Assembly (NCBI GenBank): GCA_015229045.1
Contig: JADGCJ010000015.1
Span: 1-42,542, forward strand
Source: Magnetococcales bacterium
GTDB taxonomy: Bacteria; Pseudomonadota; Magnetococcia; Magnetococcales; DC0425bin3
Direction of reading: 5' to 3'
DNA length: 42,542 nucleotides
A program made the translations under genes and the position numbers. The notes below the pieces were generated by a model. That model searched no databases. It was not told where the DNA came from and saw nothing but the letters and a program-made list of their open reading frames with translations. Positions 4,960-42,489 of this stretch are shown one piece after another; position 1 is the stretch's first letter; the number at the start of each line of letters is the position of its first letter.

Positions 4960-5694
4960 TCATCCGTTGCTTCTCTTGTGTTTTTGGCTGGTGTGCAACA
5001 GTAACTGGTGAACGAGGAAATAAATCAGAACTCCGAAAAGTGTGCCAAAAGATACACCGACGGAAAGCATGCGAATGTTTGATGGTACGACACTCAGCAT
5101 TCCTAATATCATAACTGACATTGATATCGATGCTATGCCTGTCACCGATATTTTCAGGGCTATTTTACTCGTCCTTAGATTCTGTTCTTTCGCGTATTCT
5201 ACCTGTTCTTGATGGAGTGCGGATATTCCGTTGGCCAAAACTTCACGTCTTGCCAGCAACTGTGCGGTTTCCTGCGACTGGTTGTTTGAGAGAAACCGTC
5301 TCTTCTGCTTGAGGAGTGAAACGAGTTTCTGGACTTCTGCATCGGATGTTTCATCTTCTGGTAGAGTAAACACCTGTATATGACGAATCATGAATGGCAA
5401 CTCAGGTTCCGATGTCGATTTTTTCCTGACTATTGGAATAATAAATTTATCCTTGCGGGAAAGAGCAACGGCAATTTCGGACTGAACCCAGTGGCTTGTT
5501 ATGGAATGATCAGAAATAATACACAAAAAAACGTGCGCATCAGATATTGCTTCCAATATCCCTGACGTAATTTCTGACCCTGGCAGAAGTGAATTTTCAT
5601 CCCAAACCGTGATGCCCGCGTCGCGCAAGCGGCCTGCCAAGTGTTCAGCCAACGGTTTGTCCTGGACTGAATGGGAAATAAATACGTCGGCCAT
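4960..5694 (-). CDS. TIR domain protein with two C-terminal transmembrane segments
   Basis: 244 aa. Residues 1-125 are a bacterial TIR domain: VFISHS at the start, GITVWDENSLLPG at 27-39 and SHWVQSEI at 67-74, keeping the WxxxE spacing (W69, E73) in which the glutamate is the NADase residue of active TIRs. Residues 140-175 are helical, probably coiled coil. Two membrane segments follow (about 178-203 and 209-232), then a basic tail. TIR plus membrane helices is the plan of an abortive-infection or membrane-signalling effector, but no ThsA, SLOG or SIR2 partner is adjacent. GGGAG stands 5 nt before the ATG. The gene is AT-richer than its neighbours, suggesting acquisition. Confidence 0.85.
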   Translation of the reverse strand: MADVFISHSVQDKPLAEHLAGRLRDAGITVWDENSLLPGSEITSGILEAISDAHVFLCIISDHSITSHWVQSEIAVALSRKDKFIIPIVRKKSTSEPELPFMIRHIQVFTLPEDETSDAEVQKLVSLLKQKRRFLSNNQSQETAQLLARREVLANGISALHQEQVEYAKEQNLRTSKIALKISVTGIASISMSVMILGMLSVVPSNIRMLSVGVSFGTLFGVLIYFLVHQLLLHTSQKHKRSNG

Positions 5695-5934: not shown

Positions 5935-6690
5935 TCAGCCAAAAAATTGTCGGTTGAGAGGCAGACCCTCGAACAGCCATTGGGAGAGGGGCAGCGTGTC
6001 GGTGGGGTGACCAGTCAAAAACAGCGAAAGATCCTGCAAGGGTGCGGCAGGGCGTGTCGTCACCCCCTTGGTGGCGCTGATCAGAACCAGAGCGACAGGA
6101 AGAGCGGGGCGGGGATGCACCCTGAAAAGACGCCATGGGGTCAGACCATGTCGGCTCAATACCCCAGGAATCTCCGGCCAACGTTCCGGACGATGCACCA
6201 TATGACAGTGACCTCCTGGCGCCAGCAGATGTTTGGCACAGGCGACAAAATCGATCCAGGTGGCCGCGATTTCAAAACGGGCCATGGCCCGCACCGGATC
6301 CGGAGGCAGGCGTCCGGCATCCGGGCGAAAAAACGGCGGGTTGAAAAATACCTGCTGATAACCTCCGGGTGGCATGTCGGCGGGCGGAGTGCGCACATTG
6401 CCGCACCAGACATGAAGGGTCGCGGTCAGGTTGTTGCGGATCACGTTCTCCTGCGCATGTTGCACGAGGAGGGGTTGCAACTCCAGGGCATCCAGGTGAA
6501 TGCCCGGTGAACGATCCGCCACGATGAGCGATGTGGCAGCACAGCCGGCCCCGAGTTCGGCCAGCCGTTCCCCGGGAGTGGCTTCGATCATGGCGGCCAG
6601 CAGTTGACTTTCGACCGTACCGCCGGTGCGTCGACACACCGGGCCGCTCAAGGTCAGACGTCGGGTCAACGACCAGGACTCCTCGGACAT
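5935..6690 (-). CDS. TrmN6-like N6-adenine tRNA methyltransferase
   Basis: 251 aa class I SAM methyltransferase. The SAM loop ELGAGCAA is at 45-52 and the catalytic motif NPPF at 117-120, the pattern for exocyclic-amine methylation of adenine. The size and N-terminal RRTGGTVESQLLAAMI resemble the YfiC/TrmN6 family, which modifies A37 of tRNA-Val1 in E. coli; the exact target here is inferred. GGGG precedes the ATG by 6 nt. The 3' end lies about 240 bp from the TIR gene start, in a stretch holding only the direct repeat described above. Confidence 0.8.
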   Translation of the reverse strand: MSEESWSLTRRLTLSGPVCRRTGGTVESQLLAAMIEATPGERLAELGAGCAATSLIVADRSPGIHLDALELQPLLVQHAQENVIRNNLTATLHVWCGNVRTPPADMPPGGYQQVFFNPPFFRPDAGRLPPDPVRAMARFEIAATWIDFVACAKHLLAPGGHCHMVHRPERWPEIPGVLSRHGLTPWRLFRVHPRPALPVALVLISATKGVTTRPAAPLQDLSLFLTGHPTDTLPLSQWLFEGLPLNRQFFG

Positions 6691-6819: not shown

Positions 6820-7641
6820 ATGTCTGTTACTGACACCGAATTGTCGCGCATGGTGGATGCGGTTCGCCAGGCCGGGGCTGCGGCCATGCGTTATTTCCGT
6901 CTGGGTCAGACGGTTGCCAAGGCCGCTGATGTGCGGGAAAAGGGGTTTGACGACCCCTTGACCAATGCCGATCTGGAGGCCAACCGCATTTTGCAGGATC
7001 TGCTCCTGTCAGGGCGGCCCGATTGGGGTTGGCTCTCCGAAGAGAGTGTCGACGATGCTTCCCGGTTGCAGCGAGAGCGGGTCTGGGTGGTGGACCCCAT
7101 CGATGGCACCAAGGAGTTTATCGCCGGTCTGCCCCAGTTTGCCGTGTCGGTTGGTCTTGTCGTCGCGGGTCAGCCGGTTGCGGCTTGTGTCTACAACCCG
7201 GCCGCCGATGAACTCTACACCGCACGCCGGGGGGGGGGAACGTATCTCAATGGGAAGAGCGTTCGTACCAGCGGTCGTGATCAGCTCCTGGGAGCCACCT
7301 GTCTGGCCAGCCGCAGCGAGACTCAGCGCGGCGAGTGGGCACCCTTCGAGACGGAGTTCCAGTTGTCGATCATGGGTTCCATCGCCTACAAGCTCGCCCT
7401 GGTGGCGGCGGGTCGCTATGATGTCACCTTCACCCTGACACCCAAGAATGAATGGGACTTTTGTGCCGGACTTCTGCTGGTGGAAGAGGCCGGGGGGCGG
7501 GTCACCAATCGGGATGGACAACCGTGCCGATTCAATCAGGTCAAGACGCGTGCCGCCTCGTTGCTCGCGAGCAATGGCCCGCTGCATGACCCCCTGCTCG
7601 AACGGTTGTGCCATGTTCCCCTGACGCCGGATTGGCAGTGA
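6820..7641 (+). CDS. cysQ: 3'(2'),5'-bisphosphate nucleotidase / inositol monophosphatase family (CysQ-like)
   Basis: 273 aa, lithium-sensitive phosphatase fold. Metal-binding residues appear as SEES (73-76) and DPIDGTKEFI (92-101), and the C-terminal NEWDFCAGLLLVEEAGG carries the third metal aspartate. The TKEFI extension of the DPIDGT motif is characteristic of CysQ, which removes phosphate from PAP made during sulfate activation; broad inositol-phosphatase activity cannot be excluded. No clear Shine-Dalgarno is visible before ATG 6820. It stands alone between the divergent TrmN6-like gene and the PfkB kinase. Confidence 0.85.
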   Translation: MSVTDTELSRMVDAVRQAGAAAMRYFRLGQTVAKAADVREKGFDDPLTNADLEANRILQDLLLSGRPDWGWLSEESVDDASRLQRERVWVVDPIDGTKEFIAGLPQFAVSVGLVVAGQPVAACVYNPAADELYTARRGGGTYLNGKSVRTSGRDQLLGATCLASRSETQRGEWAPFETEFQLSIMGSIAYKLALVAAGRYDVTFTLTPKNEWDFCAGLLLVEEAGGRVTNRDGQPCRFNQVKTRAASLLASNGPLHDPLLERLCHVPLTPDWQ

Positions 7642-7775: not shown

Positions 7776-8774
7776 ATGACTCTATACCACGTTTATGGTG
7801 TTGGACACGCCTTGGTGGACATGGAACTGGAAGTGGATGACGCATTTCTGGAACGCATGTGTTTGGAAAAGGGGGCCATGACCCTGGTGGATGAAAAACG
7901 GCAAGAGGAGTTGTTGTCCGCTCTGCCCAAGGCTGCGGCGCGGCGTTCTTGTGGAGGGTCGGCGGCCAATACGGTGATTGCGGTGGCGCAACTGGGTGGT
8001 CGGGCGTTTCACTCCTGCCGGGTGGCTGGCGATGAGGCTGGGGCTTTCTTTGCCCGGGATCTGCGCGCCAACGGGGTGGAGAGTGCCCTGGATCCCGCTG
8101 GTACGGGCGTGACGGGTCGCTGTCTGGTGTTCATCACCCCCGATGCCGAGCGCACCATGTGTACGCACCTGGGTATTTCAGAACGGATCACTCCGGGGGC
8201 CTTGTTGCCGGATGACATGGCAAAGGCAACCTATCTTTATGTCGAGGGTTATTTGATCTCTTCACCAACAGCTTTGGAGACGGCTCTGGAGGCTGTTTCC
8301 CTGGCACGGAAGTTTGGTATTCGCGTTGCCGTGACCTTTTCCGATGTCAGCATGGTACGCTATTTCCGGTCGGGTCTGGAGGCCCTGGTTCAGGGGGGGG
8401 TCGATCTTATTTTTTGCAATGAGAACGAGGCGTTGGAGTTTGCCGGAACCCAGGATGTGGAGCTTGCTGCGCGACGCCTGCGTGACCTGTCTCGTTCCCT
8501 GGTCGTGACCCGTGGGGGACAGGGTGCCCTGATCGATGACGGTTCCGGTATGGTCGCTGTTCCGGGTCGAGTGGTGCAACCCGTAGACACCAACGGTGCC
8601 GGCGACCTGTTTGCCGGTGCCTACCTTTATGGCATAACCCACGGTATGACGGCTTCGGAAGCGGCGCGTCTTGCTTGCCACGCGGCATCGGTGCTTGTGA
8701 CCCGTTTTGGAGCGCGTTTGGAGTCGAGTCAGGCGCGGGAGGTGTTGCGGGTATTTCGGGGGGGAGATGTTTGA
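7776..8774 (+). CDS. PfkB-family carbohydrate/nucleoside kinase (adenosine kinase-like)
   Basis: 332 aa ribokinase-fold protein. The first PfkB signature region has GGSAANTV at 60-67, NENEA is at 215-219, and DTNGAGDLFAGA at 271-282 contains the catalytic aspartate and anion hole. The overall pattern (an N-terminal insertion followed by SCGGSAANT) resembles the adenosine kinase-like branch of alphaproteobacterial PfkB proteins. Substrate is inferred; sugars are possible. GGAAGG precedes the ATG. A rho-independent terminator follows at once. Confidence 0.85.
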   Translation: MTLYHVYGVGHALVDMELEVDDAFLERMCLEKGAMTLVDEKRQEELLSALPKAAARRSCGGSAANTVIAVAQLGGRAFHSCRVAGDEAGAFFARDLRANGVESALDPAGTGVTGRCLVFITPDAERTMCTHLGISERITPGALLPDDMAKATYLYVEGYLISSPTALETALEAVSLARKFGIRVAVTFSDVSMVRYFRSGLEALVQGGVDLIFCNENEALEFAGTQDVELAARRLRDLSRSLVVTRGGQGALIDDGSGMVAVPGRVVQPVDTNGAGDLFAGAYLYGITHGMTASEAARLACHAASVLVTRFGARLESSQAREVLRVFRGGDV

Positions 8775-8832: not shown

Positions 8833-8901
8833 CCAGGAGGAGGGGCTGTGCCCTCCCTCCTGGTGGGGTTTGGGGCGAAGCCCCAACGGAGTCTTTCACG
8901 C
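8833..8901 (-). repeat. Partial family A element with two strong hairpins
   Basis: A stem CCAGGAGG...CCTCCTGG is followed by TGGTGGGGTTTGGGGCGAAGCCCCAA, the latter a perfect stem around GAA (about 8870-8886). The GGTGGGGTTTGGGGCGAAGCC stretch matches the inner part of other family A copies in reverse orientation. Both outer ends are missing. It lies in the 180-bp spacer between the kinase terminator and the 3' end of the secreted-protein gene. Confidence 0.6.
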
Positions 8902-8953
8902 CAACTTCTGCCCGATCAGGGCATCTTTGGACGGTCTCTGAGAGATTTGCATT

Positions 8954-9277: not shown

Positions 9278-9812
9278 GGGGAGACCTCCGGATTGGTTTG
9301 GGGAAGAGACGTGAGTGTAGTCCAAAACCCATAGCAGGTTCCACCTCAAAAGCGACGCAAACCTCGCGGCATCTGCGAATCGAGACGGGATCAGCGGAAG
9401 CAGCACCTTTTGCGTGGCTTGACGAGAGCATGTGTGTTGAAAGCCCAGGTAAATTGTAACTGTCCAGGTACCCCCTCAAGAAAGGCCTGGACATGAAAGC
9501 CTTTGTCAGGGCTTCGTCCCGAACCCCACCAGGACTCTGTCCTGGACCTGTCCGGTCGCCAGCCCCCTGGACCCCGATTCGTTGCCGGGTGCTGAATAGT
9601 TGCGGTAAATTTAAACATCCCAACCCTGCGATATAAACATTTATGTTCGTCATTTCTATACGAAAGCGGTATTCTGACATGGATGTCCGAAAAATTTGCG
9701 GAACAGAATCAGTTGGGTTAACCAATTTTACCGTGAAAGCTGCACAGCGACTCTCATCGGAGGGGGGGGTGGAGATTTTCCCCATCCATGAACGGCAGCG
9801 TGGAGAGATGAC
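9278..9812. other. 535-bp intergenic region with a family A element
   Basis: Divergent spacer between the small secreted protein and the first DUF1640 gene. A full family A element occupies 9456-9603. The remaining sequence (9278-9455 and 9604-9812) has no convincing gene; 9604-9680 is AT-rich and may hold the DUF1640 promoter. Open frames crossing it show no family features. Confidence 0.6.
9456..9603 (-). mobile_element. Family A palindromic element, full-length copy 1 (MITE-like)
   Basis: 148 bp. The right end read in reverse is GCAACTATTCAGCACCC, and the left end GTAACTGTCCAGGTACCC is a diverged inverted copy. The interior contains CTCAAGAAAGGCCTGGACAT and a GGACTCTGTCCTGG hairpin, the same order as the copy at 27919-28064 but inverted. 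It encodes no protein, consistent with a non-autonomous miniature element. No target duplication is obvious. Confidence 0.7.
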
Positions 9813-10046
9813 ATGGGGGCGTTGACTTTTGATACACATGCTTTTGTCAAGCGACTCAAGGATGCAGGTTTCACGGACATCCAGGCTGAGGCCATGACCG
9901 AGGCTGTCAGGACAGCTCAGGAGTCGCGCCTGGACGACTTGGTTACCAAGCGAGATCTGGCCGATGCAAAACTGGAAATCATCAAATGGGTCATCGGTGC
10001 TTCTGGCGCTGTCATCGCGGCCATCAAGCTCATGCCGGGTGGCTGA
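9813..10046 (+). CDS. DUF1640 / CCDC90-like coiled-coil membrane protein, short form
   Basis: 77 aa. The start LTFDTHAFVKRLKDAGF is the family hallmark (FDTxxFVKxLxxAGxxxxQAEA), followed by DLVTKRDLADAKLEI, a short coiled coil, and one C-terminal membrane helix (about 54-73). The family includes mitochondrial MCUR1/CCDC90; bacterial members have no settled function. GGAGAG precedes the ATG by 5 nt. A longer paralogue lies at 13117-13548, so the two bracket the TIR-HD-GYP gene. Confidence 0.8.
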   Translation: MGALTFDTHAFVKRLKDAGFTDIQAEAMTEAVRTAQESRLDDLVTKRDLADAKLEIIKWVIGASGAVIAAIKLMPGG

Positions 10047-10243: not shown

Positions 10244-12721
10244 TTAGTTTGGAGACCAGTGACTTCCGAGGATGATGTTGCTGAGGTCGGGTGGTTTCAG
10301 AGCCTCGCTGAAATCCAGGTCGATGATCTCGATGACTTCATCTTTTTCTGTTTTATGCTCGGCCACGGGGACCAATATGTTTGATCCCTGACATTTAAAA
10401 ACAAATTTGATGTTTTCCTCCTCATCTTCTCGAAAGATGGAAACTTTGGCTGTGAGACTGCCAGGCAGTGCTTTGTAGATTTTGATGTCGTAAAAGATTT
10501 TTTTCTCAGGGTTTATGCCATTTTTTCTTAGTTCATCACTTTTTACATTGAACCCATTCTTTATAAGATAATTTAATGATAGGGCTCTTTTTTCGTATTT
10601 TTCCAGATTATCAATTTTAACTCTGACTTTTTCGTTGACATTGCTCAAGTTGTCAAGAAGGCCCAATTTTTTTAAATCAGCATAACCGAGGCGATTTCCA
10701 TAAACAGGCAGTTCTATCGTGAATTTCTTCCTGGTGCCTGTCGTTACGTGACGAGATTCTTTCTTGAGAACTTCTATCTCACGAATGAGATCTATTTTTC
10801 TGGCTTCAGCGTTATCATAAGACTTGCCTGACTCATTGATTATTCTATTGGCTATAAAATACAGGAGGATGCCTCCATCCATCTGGATGACTTTGTAATC
10901 TGGATTGAAAGGTTCAAGTTTGCTTCTCAGAAAAGGACTTTCTAGATCATCATATTTAAAGCAGTCGACTGCAACGTCAAGTTTGATGTTGTATGCTTTT
11001 CTTGTTAGAGAGTTTTTCTCAAGATTGATTTTATTTTCCTTAAGAAGTTCATCGGTTATGATTGGCTTTAGATTCTTTTTGAAGACAACACTGTCAATGA
11101 TTCTCTTATGGATTCCCCCTCTCCGATCGAACCGTTCCAGGTCCAGACCGAGATCCTCGACTCTTTTGTAAACTCCCATCTGTTTTAATTCGTCAAGAGT
11201 CATGATGGGAAGGGGATCTTGAAGAGGAACCTCTTTCGTGCTTAACTCGAGATTATCTTCTTCCATTTCCCTTGGGAATGAGAACCTGTGCATTTCGCAA
11301 CCCAAAAGCAGATCCATGTCGGTCTTATCGTTAAGTCTGTACCACGCACGGAAATGGTCTGGGTTGAAACGGCCTTTCCTGGCATGATTGATCATGATGA
11401 TCATAACCTGGAGCAGACGCAGTTCCCCTTTATCTGAGTGTGCTTCTTCCAAGACGGATACGGCGTCTGCTAAAACTATGGCTTGCAGTGTATCCAATTG
11501 ATCCTGATTTGCATGTTTCAAGTAATAATCGACATTGATCTTGATTATATCTCCGTCATGATCTCGAATCCCTGAATGACCAGACACTTCGTCTCGGAAC
11601 GTGGTCAATCCGCCGTAACCTCTGTTGCTGTCAGCGTACCACTCGTGGTGGGTCAGAGCAGCCATGGCATCGTCGTTGAGATCTTCCTGGTCTATTTCAA
11701 GGAGAATATTAAATCCCTTTACAGAGTGTCTTTTTACCAGCTCCTGATGTTTTCCATCAAGTTTGTCTTGATTTTTAAGTGCATCTTCATGTATGCTTTT
11801 TTTACCGACGTCGTGCAAAATCGCCGCCAAGGCTCCACGAACGATCTTTTTCTTCTTCCAGTTCAGCTCTTTTCCCAGGTTTATAACGTTAAGTCCAGTT
11901 ATTATACTATGGATTGCTGATTCTTTATGATTTGCACTGAGTTCCTTGAATGCCGTAACGGCTCTTGGATGAAACAAGTCCAGGGATTCGATGATTTTTT
12001 CTTCGATGAGATTCTTTGCTGATCTAAACATATCCTTTTTTTCTTGAGGACTATGTTGTGACCCTGGTGCTGTTATGTCATCGATAACATTAAGCATCTC
12101 TTCCACACGTTGCGCGGATTCGCTGATCTTTTTTCTGAACCCATGGTGTGCTTTTATTTTGTCAACACCATGTTTTTTCATCATGGCAACTATCTCGTCA
12201 GTCAGAGGATGGTCGCGATAATATAAGATTGCATTCCTGGACTGTGGATTGCGGACGTTGACAGATAATAACAGTCCATCCCAGGATTGATTGCTGTCAA
12301 CACCATACCATTCCCCTAACGGGTTGCTTTCGCAAAACGCCAGCAGCTTCTGATATACTTCATCGTCCTTACTTTTATAATCGATGCATGTAGTATATTT
12401 TAAATTGTTTGGGATTGCGCAATCGTCCAGACGGACAGGAACAAAACGTCTTTGTGCATTATCCGGGTCGCGGTCAACAACTATTCTGCGTTCGGCTTCA
12501 GCCCAGTTGCTTCTAAGGGAAGAATGAGACAGAGTGAGAATTGATATTCGTGAACCTTCCAGACCATCCTTGATCTCCTGAGGGAGGAAACCACCAACTT
12601 CGATGGCTCTTTCATCAATCCAGACCCTTAAACCATCATTTTTCAGGCGATTATAAAGCTCATGGACTATGAGCTTGTCTTCATGGCTATAACTCAAGAA
12701 AACATCATATTTGTAGTCCAT
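10244..12721 (-). CDS. TIR domain - HD-GYP-like domain fusion protein
   Basis: 825 aa from ATG 12721 (a TTG seven codons upstream is less likely). Residues 1-130 are a TIR domain: KYDVFLSYSHEDK at 4-16, GLRVWIDE at 30-37 and SNWAEAERR at 71-79, with the WxxxE glutamate at 77. After a helical linker, residues about 255-430 follow the HD-GYP order: ILHDVGK with H303/D304/K307, H332 in RHSVKG, THHE at 357-360, then GYGG at 368-371 where the family has GYP, and LADAVSVLEEA with D419. Metal ligands look intact, so phosphodiesterase activity is plausible; the P-to-G change makes the substrate uncertain. Residues 470-825 are Lys/Glu/Ile-rich with no family I recognise. No membrane segment is seen. 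The gene is strikingly AT-rich against its surroundings, indicating horizontal acquisition. Confidence 0.88.
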   Translation of the reverse strand: MDYKYDVFLSYSHEDKLIVHELYNRLKNDGLRVWIDERAIEVGGFLPQEIKDGLEGSRISILTLSHSSLRSNWAEAERRIVVDRDPDNAQRRFVPVRLDDCAIPNNLKYTTCIDYKSKDDEVYQKLLAFCESNPLGEWYGVDSNQSWDGLLLSVNVRNPQSRNAILYYRDHPLTDEIVAMMKKHGVDKIKAHHGFRKKISESAQRVEEMLNVIDDITAPGSQHSPQEKKDMFRSAKNLIEEKIIESLDLFHPRAVTAFKELSANHKESAIHSIITGLNVINLGKELNWKKKKIVRGALAAILHDVGKKSIHEDALKNQDKLDGKHQELVKRHSVKGFNILLEIDQEDLNDDAMAALTHHEWYADSNRGYGGLTTFRDEVSGHSGIRDHDGDIIKINVDYYLKHANQDQLDTLQAIVLADAVSVLEEAHSDKGELRLLQVMIIMINHARKGRFNPDHFRAWYRLNDKTDMDLLLGCEMHRFSFPREMEEDNLELSTKEVPLQDPLPIMTLDELKQMGVYKRVEDLGLDLERFDRRGGIHKRIIDSVVFKKNLKPIITDELLKENKINLEKNSLTRKAYNIKLDVAVDCFKYDDLESPFLRSKLEPFNPDYKVIQMDGGILLYFIANRIINESGKSYDNAEARKIDLIREIEVLKKESRHVTTGTRKKFTIELPVYGNRLGYADLKKLGLLDNLSNVNEKVRVKIDNLEKYEKRALSLNYLIKNGFNVKSDELRKNGINPEKKIFYDIKIYKALPGSLTAKVSIFREDEEENIKFVFKCQGSNILVPVAEHKTEKDEVIEIIDLDFSEALKPPDLSNIILGSHWSPN

Positions 12722-12991: not shown

Positions 12992-13119
12992 TTATTCCAT
13001 TCCAGATCAAGATGGATGCGAGGCGACAACGAATGAGCGACAAGACAGTACGTGTTGGGTACGGCGAGGAGCGAGTGAGGCAGTCAACGAAGCAGACGCT
13101 TGATCTGGGATTGGAATTA
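12992..13119 (-). mobile_element. Family B palindromic element, divergent subtype (copy 1)
   Basis: 128 bp with inverted ends TTATTCCATTCCAGATCAAG and (reverse strand) TAATTCCAATCCCAGATCAA. The interior carries the family B core, read on the minus strand as CGTACCCAACACGTACTGTC, but the ends differ from the ATACCAATTTGCA ends of the other three copies. On the minus strand the terminal TAA is the stop codon of the DUF1640 gene. Confidence 0.7.
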
Positions 13120-13548
13120 CCTGGCAGGTGCAGGCGGGACGGAGGGTGGTTCTGGCCGGACAGGCAGAGGCAGACGCATCTCTTGCGCGGCGTGGGGAGC
13201 CGTGACATATTCCACCTGAATGGGCCAAAGGCGATTGGCGGTGATCATCAGACCGAAGAGGGCGAGCATCATTGTCCCGAGCTTGATGATCATGCGCAGC
13301 TCCAGTTCTTTGAGCTTGGCATCCATCTCCCTGAAGCGGGCATCCATCTTGGCATCGAGTTCCTTGATGTCCCTTTCCAGGCGGATGACATCCCCTTTGG
13401 TTGCCAGCTCATCCTGGCGGGCATCCTCCACCTTTTGCAAAACCTTGGATAAGGCACTGGCCTGCGCCTCGGCCTGGGCGGGTGGCACACCGGCAGTCTC
13501 CAGCTCCTTCACGAAGGCAAGGGTATCGAAAGGGATCGCATAGGCCAT
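13117..13548 (-). CDS. DUF1640 / CCDC90-like coiled-coil membrane protein, long form
   Basis: 143 aa. The N-terminus IPFDTLAFVKELETAGV with QAEAQASALSKVL matches the family start; ELATKGDVIRLERDIKELDA and following residues to about 85 form a strong coiled coil; one membrane helix follows (about 85-107); the C-terminus is proline-rich (PVRPEPPSVPPAPAR). GGGAG lies 8 nt before the ATG. Its TAA stop coincides with the terminal bases of the palindromic element, so the present C-terminus may have been set by that insertion. It is a paralogue of the gene at 9813-10046. Confidence 0.82.
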   Translation of the reverse strand: MAYAIPFDTLAFVKELETAGVPPAQAEAQASALSKVLQKVEDARQDELATKGDVIRLERDIKELDAKMDARFREMDAKLKELELRMIIKLGTMMLALFGLMITANRLWPIQVEYVTAPHAAQEMRLPLPVRPEPPSVPPAPAR

Positions 13549-13636: not shown

Positions 13637-15034
13637 CTATTTCTGGCAGCGGGCATAGAAAGACTCAAACTCCTCTTCGCGAAACAGGGGGTTGACCGAT
13701 TGCCCCCAGCGGGTGCGATAGGCCTTGAGGAGCCTCTCCGCCGGGGTGATGCCGCTTTCGGCGACACGAAACAGGGGCTGGAGATAGATCGATTCGTCGC
13801 AGCCTTCGCGGTTTTTGACCGCCTGCCGGTGCAGACTGGCACGGGCTGTCTCCAGAATGCCTATGGCCAGATCCTGCAAGGTGCGCCTCCCCGGAATGGA
13901 GGTGCGCAGGGCAAGGCGCGGCGCCTCGCGATGCACGGCTGCCCGCTCTTCCGGTGTCCAGTCGGCGACGCGCTCCCAGGCCTCGGCCAAGGCCTGGTCG
14001 TCGTAAAGCAGAGCCTTCCAGAAGGCGGGGAGGGCGGATAGATTGGCCGAATTACCGGCATCGGCGCCCCGGGTTTCGAGAAAATGCTTGAGGCGGACAT
14101 CCGGAAAGAGGGTGGTCAGATGCAGGCTCCAGTCGGCAGCGGTGGGGTATTGCCCGGGCAGGGTGGGCAGCCGCCCTTCCAGAAAGGCGCGAAAAGGAGC
14201 AGCACCGGCCTCCTGATAATGCCCGTCCCGGTAATAAAAAAACATGGGGACATCCAGGGCATATTCTACATAATTCCGAAAACCAAACCCCTCGGCAAAG
14301 ACGAAAGGGAGATATCCGCAGCGGTCCGGATCGGTGTGCCGCCAGATCTCCGAACGATAGGAGAGAAAACCGTTCGGACGCCCGTTGGTGAAGGGGGAGT
14401 TGGCAAAAAGAGCCGTCGCCAGAGGCTGCAGGGCCAGGGCCAGACGAAATTTGGCCACCATGTCCGCCTCGCTGGCAAAATCCAGATTGGCCTGCACGGT
14501 GGCGGTACGGGTCATCATGTCCAGGCCGAGGCTTCCCTTGGTGGGGAGATAGGCGCGCATGAAGCGATAGCGCTCCTTGGGCATCCAGGGGATCTCTTCG
14601 CGCGGGCATTTCGGCTGTGCTCCCACCCCGACAAAAGCCACGTCCAGATCGCGGCACACCACGCCCAGTTGATCCAGATGGGTATTGATCTCGGCCTGGG
14701 TCTGGTGAATGGTCTCCTGGGGTGCCCCGGACAACTCCACCTGCCCACCCGGTTCCAGGGTGATGGAGGCTTGCCCCTGAAGCAGGGCGATGGGATTGTC
14801 GCCTTCAAAGACAGGTTGCCAACCAAACTGTGCGGCCATCTTTTCCAGAATGACGCGAACCCCTCCCGGTCCGGCGTAGGGAATGGGGGTCATATCCCTT
14901 TTTCGGAAGCCAAATTTTTCGTGTTCCGTGCCAATGCGCCACTGGGAGCGGGGCTTGCAACCCGCCTCCATGTAGGTGATCAGGTCTGCAACACAGGTAA
15001 CCGGCTGTTGATCGGTGGAGATGAGGGTGGACAT
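13637..15034 (-). CDS. gshA: Glutamate-cysteine ligase (plant/alphaproteobacterial type)
   Basis: 465 aa. It catalyses ATP-dependent joining of glutamate and cysteine, the first step of glutathione synthesis. Family features in order: RIGTEHEKFGF near residue 34, ITLEPGGQVELSGAP near 91, LGLDMMTRTATVQANLDF in the middle, NSPFTNGRPNGFLSYRS, and LPFVFAEGFGFRNYVEYALD. This is the GCS2-like class found in plants and alphaproteobacteria, distinct from E. coli GshA. ATG 15034 is preceded by a TTG codon that could serve instead. No gshB is in the window. Confidence 0.93.
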   Translation of the reverse strand: MSTLISTDQQPVTCVADLITYMEAGCKPRSQWRIGTEHEKFGFRKRDMTPIPYAGPGGVRVILEKMAAQFGWQPVFEGDNPIALLQGQASITLEPGGQVELSGAPQETIHQTQAEINTHLDQLGVVCRDLDVAFVGVGAQPKCPREEIPWMPKERYRFMRAYLPTKGSLGLDMMTRTATVQANLDFASEADMVAKFRLALALQPLATALFANSPFTNGRPNGFLSYRSEIWRHTDPDRCGYLPFVFAEGFGFRNYVEYALDVPMFFYYRDGHYQEAGAAPFRAFLEGRLPTLPGQYPTAADWSLHLTTLFPDVRLKHFLETRGADAGNSANLSALPAFWKALLYDDQALAEAWERVADWTPEERAAVHREAPRLALRTSIPGRRTLQDLAIGILETARASLHRQAVKNREGCDESIYLQPLFRVAESGITPAERLLKAYRTRWGQSVNPLFREEEFESFYARCQK

Positions 15035-15068
15035 CAAGACACGTCCGTTTCTGCAAGGAAGGGGATGG

Positions 15069-20002: not shown

Positions 20003-21403
20003 TTAACGCACGAGAATGAACAACCCCTGGCCATCGCGTTCAATATTCAAAAGCAGTTGTCGCTGGACACGACCCGAGGCCTTGGCCAGCTCGTCCAGAT
20101 TCTTCACCACCTGACGATTGACCGACAGGATGCGATCTCCCGGACGCAGGCCGATGCGCCAGGCCGGGGAACCCTCCCGAACAGAGGCCACCAGAATACC
20201 CTCTTTCTCCTCGGTTTTGCCGGGTTTGATCTCCAGCAGGGCACCATCCAGGTTCGGGTTGGCCTCCTTGCCATCTCTGCGCAAAAACTCCGGCTGGGTC
20301 ACCACGGCTTTGGCGGCGTGGATCTTGCCGTCACGCATGAACTTGAGCTGGACCTCCTCGCCGGTTCGCACCAAGCCGATCACATTGCGCAGCGCGGCGG
20401 CGTTACGAATCTCCCGGCCATTGGCCTCGATGATCACATCGCCGCGACGCAACCCGGCCCGTTCGGCCCCGGAACCGGCCACCACGTTGCCCACCACCGC
20501 CCCACCAATGCGATCCAAACCGAACGCAGTCGCCAGATCCGCCGTCAAATCCTGGGATTGCACCCCCAACAGGCCCCGGCGTACCTCGCCGTTGTCGACC
20601 AGTTGCGTCATGATCTGGCGCACCATGTTGACGGGGATGGCAAAGCCGATGCCGACGTTACCGCCCCCCTTGGCCAGGATGGCGGTGTTGATGCCGATGA
20701 GTTCTCCGCGCAGATTGACCAGGGCACCGCCGGAGTTGCCCGGATTGATGGAGGCATCGGTCTGGATGAAGTCCTCATATCCCTCGATGCCCAAACCATT
20801 GCGCCCCATGGCACTGACGATGCCGGAGGTCACCGTCGATCCCAGACCAAAGGGATTGCCAATGGCCACGACAAAATCCCCCACCCGCAAGCCATCCGAA
20901 TCGCCGATGGGCAGAGCGGACAGACGCTCCGCCGGAATGCGCACCACGGCGATGTCGGTCTCGGCATCCTCGCCGACTCTTTGTGCCTGAAGATTGCGCC
21001 CGTCCGACAGGGTGATGGTAATCTCCTGGGCGTTCTTGATGACGTGGTTGTTGGTCAGGACATACCCTTTGGCCGCATCCATCAACACCCCGGAACCCAG
21101 ACTGCGCTGGATCTGTTCACGAGGCTGGCTCCGATTGTTGGGCATGTCGAAAAAGTAGCGAAACAGAGGATCGCTCAACAGCGGATGGTCGGCAACCTGG
21201 ATGCGGCTGCTCGTATGAATGTTGACCACGGCCGGCATCACCTTTTCCAGCATGGGGGCCAGGCTCGGCATGGATGATCCGGAGACCTCCGATGGCCAGA
21301 ACCCCGCCCAGGCGAGGATGGGCAGCGCCAACACAATTCCCATCGACAGGAGGAGTCCTGCCAGCCAATGCCCAACACGCTGTCCATGATTCGTTCGTAT
21401 CAT
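20003..21403 (-). CDS. Periplasmic serine protease, Do/DegP (HtrA) family
   Basis: 466 aa. Signal/anchor sequence at 12-33, then a trypsin-like domain with the catalytic triad H120 (LTNNHV), D150 (ETDIAVV) and S224 (GNSGGA), then two PDZ domains (about 255-345 and 370-465). Two PDZ domains mark DegP/DegQ rather than DegS. It degrades or chaperones misfolded envelope proteins. ATG 21403 is chosen because GGGAGG lies 6 nt upstream; a TTG seven codons earlier would include this site. It lacks CxxCH motifs, so it is not a MamE-type protease. Confidence 0.94.
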   Translation of the reverse strand: MIRTNHGQRVGHWLAGLLLSMGIVLALPILAWAGFWPSEVSGSSMPSLAPMLEKVMPAVVNIHTSSRIQVADHPLLSDPLFRYFFDMPNNRSQPREQIQRSLGSGVLMDAAKGYVLTNNHVIKNAQEITITLSDGRNLQAQRVGEDAETDIAVVRIPAERLSALPIGDSDGLRVGDFVVAIGNPFGLGSTVTSGIVSAMGRNGLGIEGYEDFIQTDASINPGNSGGALVNLRGELIGINTAILAKGGGNVGIGFAIPVNMVRQIMTQLVDNGEVRRGLLGVQSQDLTADLATAFGLDRIGGAVVGNVVAGSGAERAGLRRGDVIIEANGREIRNAAALRNVIGLVRTGEEVQLKFMRDGKIHAAKAVVTQPEFLRRDGKEANPNLDGALLEIKPGKTEEKEGILVASVREGSPAWRIGLRPGDRILSVNRQVVKNLDELAKASGRVQRQLLLNIERDGQGLFILVR

Positions 21404-21430
21404 GATGATCCTCCCTTTATTCAAGCCTGG

Positions 21431-27918: not shown

Positions 27919-28064
27919 GTAACTATTCAGCACCCGGCAACGAATCGGGGTCCAGAGGGCTGGCGACCGGACAGGTCCAGGACAGAGTCCTGGCGAGGTT
28001 CGGGGCGAAGCCCTGACAGAGGCTTTCATGTCCAGGCCTTTTTCGAGGGGTACTGAATAGTTAC
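27919..28064 (+). mobile_element. Family A palindromic element, full-length copy 2 (MITE-like)
   Basis: 146 bp. Inverted ends GTAACTATTCAGCACCC (27919) and its complement with one mismatch ending at 28064. The interior has GGTCCAGGACAGAGTCCTGG, a hairpin, and GGGGCGAAGCC. It fills nearly the whole gap between the convergent etfA and PilZ genes and is followed by a GTTTTTTTC tract, so it could end transcription from the etfA side. Confidence 0.8.
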
Positions 28065-29841: not shown

Positions 29842-30137
29842 GACGGCAACCCACCCGCAAACATGATGCGACACCCCACCCTGCGCCCGGCCTGTGCAAG
29901 GCACCGGACTTTTCTGTGTCCTACATTTTCCAGGCCAAAAACGGAATCGGTTTCGGGATGCGTCATTTTTTTTAATGTTCGAGTAACTATTCAGTACCCC
30001 CTCAAGAAAGGCCTGGACATGAAAGCCTTTGTCAGGGCTGTGCCCTTCCTGATCGATTTTTTTTGGTTTTTTTCAGTTTTGGTTCAGGTTCCTCCTCCAG
30101 ACTTCTCCCCAACATGAACTCTTCAGGGAGAAAGACG
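29842..30137. other. Divergent intergenic region with truncated family A element
   Basis: About 296 bp between the PilZ gene and the cytochrome operon. It contains the T-tract motif CGGGATGCGTCATTTTTTTT at 29954-29973 and a 57-bp left end of family A at 29983-30039. The stretch 30040-30137 is T-rich, then carries AGGGAG before the cytochrome start; the operon promoter must lie within or just after the element. Confidence 0.55.
29983..30039 (-). repeat. Truncated family A element
   Basis: Starts GTAACTATTCAGTACCCC and continues CTCAAGAAAGGCCTGGACAT and GAAAGCCTTTGTCAGGGCT, matching the left part of the copy at 9456-9603 almost base for base, then diverges. The other end is absent. Confidence 0.75.
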
Positions 30138-34118: not shown

Positions 34119-34242
34119 TACCAATTCGCATTCATCGCGGTCACTTCGTTTAGCTGCGTTGTTGGCTCCCACCGTACCAACACGTACTGTCTCGTCGCCT
34201 CCTCCTTGCTGCCTCGTTCCCGCATCGACTGCAAATTGGCAT
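34118..34242 (+). mobile_element. Family B palindromic element, copy 2
   Basis: About 125 bp. It starts ATACCAATTCGCATTC and ends GCAAATTGGCAT, an imperfect inverted repeat extending about 30 nt inward, with the family core ACACGTACTGTCTCGTCG. It fills the whole gap between the convergent histidine kinase and topA genes: its left end overlaps the kinase stop and its right end is 5 nt from the topA stop. Confidence 0.85.
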
Positions 34243-34247
34243 GAGGG

Positions 34248-40094: not shown

Positions 40095-40220
40095 ATACCA
40101 ATTTGCAGTCGATGCGAGAACGAGGCGGCAAGGAGGAGGCGACGAGACAGTACGTGTTGGGTACGGTGAGGAGCCGACGACGCGGCCAACGAAGTTATCG
40201 CGATGAATGCAAATGGGTAT
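40095..40220 (-). mobile_element. Family B palindromic element, copy 3
   Basis: 126 bp. Starts ATACCAATTTGCAGTC and ends GAATGCAAATGGGTAT, with imperfect complementarity about 30 nt inward and the core on the minus strand. It lies between the convergent carbonic anhydrase and zinc-ribbon genes, and its right-hand end overlaps the TGA stop of the latter. Confidence 0.85.
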
Positions 40221-41913: not shown

Positions 41914-42040
41914 ATACCAATTTGCATTCATCGCGATAACTTCGTTAGCCGCGTCGTCGGCTCCTCACCGTACCCAACACGTACTGTCTCGTCGCCTCCT
42001 CCTTGCTGCCTCGTTCTCGCATCGACTGCAAATTGGTATC
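41914..42040 (+). mobile_element. Family B palindromic element, copy 4
   Basis: About 127 bp. ATACCAATTTGCATTC at the left and GCAAATTGGTAT at the right are near-perfect inverted ends, and the core CGTACCCAACACGTACTGTC is intact. It is inverted relative to copy 3, so the two flank the zinc-ribbon gene as a pair. It separates that gene from any upstream promoter beyond 20 nt. Confidence 0.85.
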
Positions 42041-42489
42041 AATCCCTGACAAGCCATGAGGGAATGGACAATCCCTTGGTCCTGACCGACAACAATCAAA
42101 AGCCGTGCCAATACTTGAGTAGGCCCTTTTTTCCAACCACCCAGGGCAATCGCATTTAAACCGCGTCTACTTTGGGACACGTCGTTTTTTTGTTCGGAAA
42201 AAAATGTTGACATGAAAGATTTTATCGGGGCTTCGCCCCAAACCCCACCAGGACTCTGTCCTGGACCTGCCAGGGAGCCAGCCCCCTTGTATCTTGGATC
42301 CGATGAAAAATAAACGCTCGTTTGATATGTTTCATACCACTGGGCGAAACGGAAGCAGGCTCTGCTGGGGAGCAACCTGCCGAGGGATAACCCAGTCCAA
42401 ACTCATCGAGACGGTGGGTCAGGGAGTGGGATGGAAAATTCCACTCCCTCCATTCGCCAGGGAGAATACACCGGACGATAGATTTGGCC
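42041..42489. other. Non-coding, repeat-derived right end of the window
   Basis: About 450 bp with no supported gene. It holds a 20-bp match to the left window end (42141-42160), the GGGACACGTCGTTTTTTT motif (42174-42191) and a partial family A element (42207-42289). The rest, 42290-42489, shows no family features in any frame. Confidence 0.5.
42207..42289 (-). repeat. Partial family A element
   Basis: Contains GACATGAAAG, the GGGGCTTCGCCCC hairpin, AACCCCACCAGGACTCTGTC and CTGGACCTG, in the order found in the full copy at 9456-9603. Both terminal repeats are missing. Confidence 0.7.

Follow-up and report, generated by a model that had tools for sequence, protein, structure and literature searches.

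A TIR protein with a divergent HD-GYP-like domain in a Magnetococcales bacterium, and a relative with the opposite domain order

The window analysed here is a 42,542-nucleotide stretch of a Magnetococcales bacterium (contig JADGCJ010000015.1), and the gene under study occupies positions 10244..12721 of its minus strand. The encoded protein (825 residues) joined a TIR domain, a divergent HD-GYP-like domain, and a C-terminal region of no known family. In the one relative found, P0002, these parts occur in reverse order, which makes it probable that TIR and HD-GYP act jointly, perhaps against phages. With a probability of about one half, we read the protein as a single-protein TIR NADase (NAD+-cleaving) effector with a repurposed HD-GYP/C-terminal module as its controlling input, most likely used in defence of the abortive-infection type.

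The open reading frame (ORF) began with an ATG at 12721 and its stop codon ended at 10244; frame 1 of the plus strand over the same positions contained many stops. The initial annotation of the window had called this ORF without stating its strand. The ORF proved real, and the minus strand is now established. The motifs listed there were found at the residues or ranges given: HDVGK (303–307), RHSVKG (331–336), THHE (357–360), GYGG (368–371), LADAV (417–421), and W73/E77. Its architecture of TIR, HD-GYP, and an unassigned C-terminal region was correct by Pfam, PDB sequence, and alignment evidence. PADLOC and NCBIfam gave partial matches only for the 825-residue protein, to TIR parts of defence proteins including ThsB models, and scans with Pfam, NCBIfam, and PADLOC at E 1 detected no STING family. 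A full-length AlphaFold2 model built from two sequences showed a mean predicted local distance difference test (pLDDT) value of 35.3 and was not used.

The TIR domain (residues about 1–133; 12323..12721, minus strand) matched the Pfam families TIR_2 (E 5.6e-25, residues 7–127) and TIR (4.3e-10, residues 4–86). Its closest solved structures by sequence were 7uxr (BtTir, 1.8e-11) and 7uwg (AbTir, 1.2e-9). Mutations of AbTir at S140, R151, D167, V193, W204, E208, and R215 were reported as inhibitory in the available part of PMC11374754. Compared at the positions within the alignment, outside which Y238 falls, S140, D167, W204, E208, and R215 of AbTir were identical to S10, D36, W73, E77, and R84, and V193 was replaced by L62. 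The WxxxE catalytic glutamate and the TIR fold of bacterial TIR NADases were both present, and the domain is predicted to be an NADase.

HD-GYP domains normally destroy bacterial signalling nucleotides. The divergent domain of this family in the window protein covered residues about 255–468 (11318..11959, minus strand). PmGH, a cyclic dimeric guanosine monophosphate (c-di-GMP) phosphodiesterase of Persephonella marina, matched it by sequence at 3.6e-7, and this match and the alignments bear out the HD-GYP relation suggested earlier for residues 250–430. Pfam matches were weaker: HD_5 gave 4.5e-5 (23.7 bits, under the curated cut-off of 27.2) and HD gave 4.9e-4 (20.8 bits, under the cut-off of 22). 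The domain of P0002 passed the HD cut-off with 27.5 bits and fell under that of HD_5 with 19.2 bits. The metal ligands of PmGH are E185, H189, H221, D222, H250, H276, H277, and D305 (PMC4159591, excerpts), and alignment A7 placed E267, H271, H303, D304, H332, H358, H359, and D419 at these positions and K307 at that of K225. P0002 kept seven of the ligands and the K225 equivalent, the eighth (E185/E267) being Gly. With the HD-GYP fold, HD diad, and metal ligands in place, a metal site is likely in this part of the protein. The initial annotation had hinged on both the NADase and the phosphodiesterase pocket being kept; at residue level, the metal ligands and TIR catalytic residues are present.

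Other positions departed from PmGH. Instead of the signature HHExxDGxGYP we observed HHEWYADSNRGYGG, in which Pro is replaced by Gly (GYGG for GYP) and the spacing is altered. After GYG, 33 residues within 371–408 (27 in P0002) were absent from four comparators in alignment A5. The D308 equivalent was Ser in the window protein and P0002, and Asp or Glu in all eight comparators, from which the near-copies (L005, P0007, and P0008, of L003 and P0006) were excluded. The R314 equivalent was His in the window protein, Ser in P0002, and Arg in 8/8 comparators. In both proteins the K317 equivalent was Lys and that of D183 was His. Alanine at D183, K225, or D308 of PmGH was about as damaging as at the metal ligands, and D183A abolished activity, as given in the excerpted text of PMC4159591. 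Ordinary c-di-GMP phosphodiesterase turnover is doubtful, mainly because of the changes of D308 to Ser and D183 to His; it appears more likely that the ligand has changed or that the domain acts as a sensor. Ahead of this domain, a small N-terminal core segment (residues about 136–190; 12152..12316, minus strand) resembled the segment preceding the HD-GYP domain of P0005 in alignments A3 and A5; the similarity was modest, and alignment A7 put the P0005 segment elsewhere.

For the C-terminal region (residues 488–825; 10244..11260, minus strand) the searches found a relative only in P0002, where it was 42% identical. Its 338 residues gave no Pfam match at E 1 and a best PDB sequence match of E 0.48. 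Searches of phages and plasmids gave no match, nor did viral contigs scanned with two peptide patterns. A protein search with this region only (7999 scored candidates) failed to recover P0002 itself and is therefore weak evidence of absence. An internal duplication, suggested by two DEL..N/G-IN-EK motifs, is not claimed: in four comparisons 28, 40, 10, and 42 out of 500 shuffles scored at least as high, and a profile comparison of the two halves gave about 1% probability.

P0002 is a 'TIR domain-containing protein' of 833 residues from Magnetococcus sp. DMHC-1 (class Magnetococcia). When 5.8 billion proteins were queried with the whole core, 7992 candidates were scored and four proteins reached E 0.001: the query itself, P0002, and two that matched in the HD domain only. 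In a profile search with 7998 scored candidates, six proteins reached E 0.01, namely the query itself, P0002, and four with HD-only matches. Members more distant than these may lie beyond the scored candidates. The core aligned end to end, with 44% identity over 99% of residues 135–825. The window protein begins with its TIR; P0002 begins with the core and ends with its TIR (aligned residues 698–828). The two TIR domains were 41% identical over 131 residues, a value near that of the core (44%). They were also reciprocal best matches among eight TIRs, with 113 bits against at most 73 for the others, the near-copies L011, L013, and L014 (of L010 and L012) being excluded. The best TIR matches reached 64 bits among 72,556 plasmid records and 63 bits among 50,697 phage records. 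The simplest account of these sequences would be a single TIR stock that never parted from its core, the order having changed through fusion of neighbouring genes in either order or through circular permutation. The core may instead have recruited similar TIRs independently, as the comparison covered part of all TIRs, and this would argue even more strongly for a functional link.

Further searches for the family gave little. Peptide-pattern scans of genome_contigs and viral_contigs found no member, which is weak evidence of absence with two to six patterns per scan. The viral-contig scans showed five HD-GYP and eight TIR loci, and in none of these 13 ORFs were the two domains joined. At E 0.01 the core had matches in 21 plasmid records, of which the 12 listed cover no more than 24% of it. 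The island DNA showed no plasmid match, and viral predicted structures gave no match at E 0.001.

The gene is solitary, with a PfkB-family kinase (7776–8774, plus strand) on one side and a GCS2 glutamate-cysteine ligase (13637–15037, minus strand) on the other. On either flank lay a CCDC90-like coiled-coil gene, at 9813–10046 (plus strand, Pfam 2.9e-10) and at 13117–13548 (minus strand, Pfam 3.8e-9). A second lone TIR gene was observed 4.5 kb away at 4960–5694 (minus strand, 244 residues, TIR_2 8.2e-25). It is AT-rich (45% GC), its TIR was 29% identical over 79 residues to that of the window protein, and the hydrophobic stretches past its TIR resemble membrane helices by eye. The PADLOC match to mad2 for the methyltransferases at 5935–6690 and 1366–2190 covered a single generic domain and was not taken as defence. 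The trypsin/PDZ protease at 20003–21424 was also rejected as a defence gene, its PADLOC match likewise covering a single generic domain, in models that include protease parts.

The ORF has a GC content of 42% (43% at third positions), compared with 59–62% (62–72%) in four neighbours (5935–6690, 6820–7641, 7776–8774, and 13637–15037). Base composition, the sole basis for this, suggests arrival by horizontal transfer. The initial annotation had spoken of a mobile defence gene. The AT-rich composition agrees with that. The window showed no tRNA, and among the 17 other ORFs scanned from 748 to 21424 Pfam found no integrase, CD-NTase, ThsA-like gene, or known defence partner. Nothing in the scanned part looked like a defence island. 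The flanking repeats at 9472–9601 (left) and 13019–13092 (right) were rejected as the ends of one element, as they belong to different dispersed families. The left one is part of a family of up to 130 nucleotides (9472–9601, 27921–28050, 29994–30045, 42197–42287, and 8858–8905), with pairs 80–100% alike and in both orientations. The other family was found at 40095–40220, 41914–42039, 34177–34243, and 13019–13092, and one of its pairs forms a 126-nucleotide inverted repeat (98% complementary) enclosing a 557-residue ORF.

From the domains and their conserved residues we infer the following working model. The TIR would be the output, an NADase cleaving NAD+ or making a cyclic ADP-ribose (cADPR) isomer. 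The core, made up of the N-terminal segment, the divergent metal-binding HD-GYP domain, and the unique C-terminal region, would be the input. It may bind, and perhaps slowly hydrolyse, a phosphodiester ligand, probably not plain c-di-GMP, and would thereby turn the assembly of the TIR on or off. With the TIR ahead of the core in one protein and behind it in the other, control by oligomerisation (induced proximity) appears more likely than a fixed channel between active sites. Abortive-infection-type defence would be the most probable use.

Several observations weigh against this model. The fold model had middling confidence (mean pLDDT 63.7), and Foldseek E-values were weak (TIR 1.5e-4, PgpH 1.0e-3, and PmGH 1.5e-3). 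R151, which AbTir requires for NADase activity, is H20 in the window protein; P0002 otherwise showed the same catalytic-residue pattern but has Asn at this position. PmGH mutants in GYP, R314, and K317 lost little activity (PMC4159591, available text), and these departures alone therefore do not exclude hydrolysis. The D183 position was also non-Asp in three of the eight comparators. Only two family members were found among the scored candidates. Neighbours with a Pfam match (17 ORFs, 748–21424) were mostly housekeeping genes, and PADLOC detected no known defence system in 18 other window ORFs, whose only matches were over generic methyltransferase or protease domains; apart from the gene itself, there was only the lone TIR gene at 4960–5694.

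The initial annotation had proposed that one polypeptide makes and removes a nucleotide signal, and the co-occurrence of the domains remained its sole support. A self-limiting or toggle enzyme of this kind, in which the TIR makes a cADPR-type signal (or is activated by a cyclic nucleotide) and the HD-GYP domain destroys the signal as a timer or off-switch, is in our view unlikely. The metal ligands, Lys225, and most TIR catalytic residues were kept across the domain rearrangement, the altered residues could suit a new substrate, and Macro, NADAR, and Nudix fusions of jumbo phages are described as possible toggles (PMC7824862, excerpts). However, both proteins have His and Ser at the positions of the damaging PmGH mutations D183A and D308A (PMC4159591, excerpts). 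An ordinary c-di-GMP regulator of motility or surface behaviour, with an HD-GYP phosphodiesterase and the TIR as a protein-binding domain and no part in defence, is similarly improbable. The HD-GYP family and its preceding segment do resemble plain HD-GYP proteins such as P0005, the gene sits among housekeeping genes, and PmGH mutants in GYP and R314 remain active (PMC4159591, excerpts), but most TIR catalytic residues are kept, the Asp308 and Asp183 equivalents are altered, and neither rarity among the scored candidates nor low GC would be expected of a housekeeping regulator.

The departures at Asp308, Asp183, Arg314, and the GYP loop, together with the 33 extra residues, would also suit a dead HD-GYP enzyme serving as a ligand-binding or structural scaffold with a structural metal. 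In that case the actual sensing, for instance of a phage component, would fall to the C-terminal region, which is 42% conserved and otherwise unmatched. Against this account, both proteins keep seven metal ligands and Lys225 at an overall identity of 44%, and we give it a comparably small chance. A bolder reading, slightly less probable still, is a self-timing immune enzyme: the HD-GYP domain would be re-specialised from cyclic dinucleotides to the TIR-made cADPR isomer or to the activator of the TIR, the C-terminal region would be a new sensor, and the TIR could stand at either end since only induced proximity matters. A fusion by chance, or a gene in decay, with no functional coupling of its parts would fit the AT-rich composition and the two members among scored candidates. 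The existence of P0002 already makes it unlikely, and with both ORFs intact, the core aligned end to end, and the TIRs closely kin though at opposite ends, we regard it as very improbable.

If the model of a TIR NADase effector with an HD-GYP/C-terminal input is true, HD-GYP joins the input modules controlling TIR NADases, and cyclic-dinucleotide chemistry is linked to NAD+ signalling within a single chain. That the two relatives differ in domain order offers a natural test of which contacts matter. Should the HD-GYP site remove a TIR-made or TIR-activating signal, the protein would have a built-in off-switch, elsewhere only predicted with other domains in the available text of PMC7824862.

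Compared with known systems, PmGH (4mcw, 4mdz, and 4me4) shared the HD-GYP fold, seven of eight metal ligands, and Lys225 with both proteins, and the eighth ligand (Glu185) with the window protein only. It differs in its GYP motif, in Asp308, Arg314, and Asp183, and in carrying a GAF domain and no TIR as described in the excerpts of PMC4159591. AbTir and BtTir have the TIR fold and WxxxE in common with the window protein, which also shares most AbTir NADase residues; they are solved domains without the HD-GYP core, and the R151 equivalent differs. P0002 differs in its C-terminal TIR and in Gly at the E267 position. Thoeris pairs ThsB, a TIR protein, with ThsA; the TIR part gave a partial ThsB match, and no ThsA was found among the 18 window ORFs scanned with PADLOC. 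In jumbo phages, makers of NAD+ signals are fused to predicted degraders. What is shared is the idea that a single chain both makes and removes a signal, but those fusions use other domains, are phage-encoded, and rest on prediction (PMC7824862, excerpts). The searches made of open-licence PMC literature turned up no report of a TIR and HD-GYP fusion, and within them the initial annotation's statement that it knew of no described system with this architecture holds; PMC7824862 and PMC10667535 contain both terms, in their available text apart and with no fusion. The bacterial TIR-STING effector of the cyclic-oligonucleotide-based anti-phage signalling system (CBASS) is the working precedent for the proposed mechanism; in it a TIR NADase is joined to a domain of a type that handles cyclic dinucleotides. 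In the excerpts of PMC9402430, c-di-GMP binding forms filaments that pack TIRs into active NADases in phage defence. Its sensor is STING, not HD-GYP, and it sits in CBASS operons with a nucleotide synthase; no such synthase was found among the scanned neighbours. What sets the present protein apart is the new type of input domain proposed for its TIR effector.
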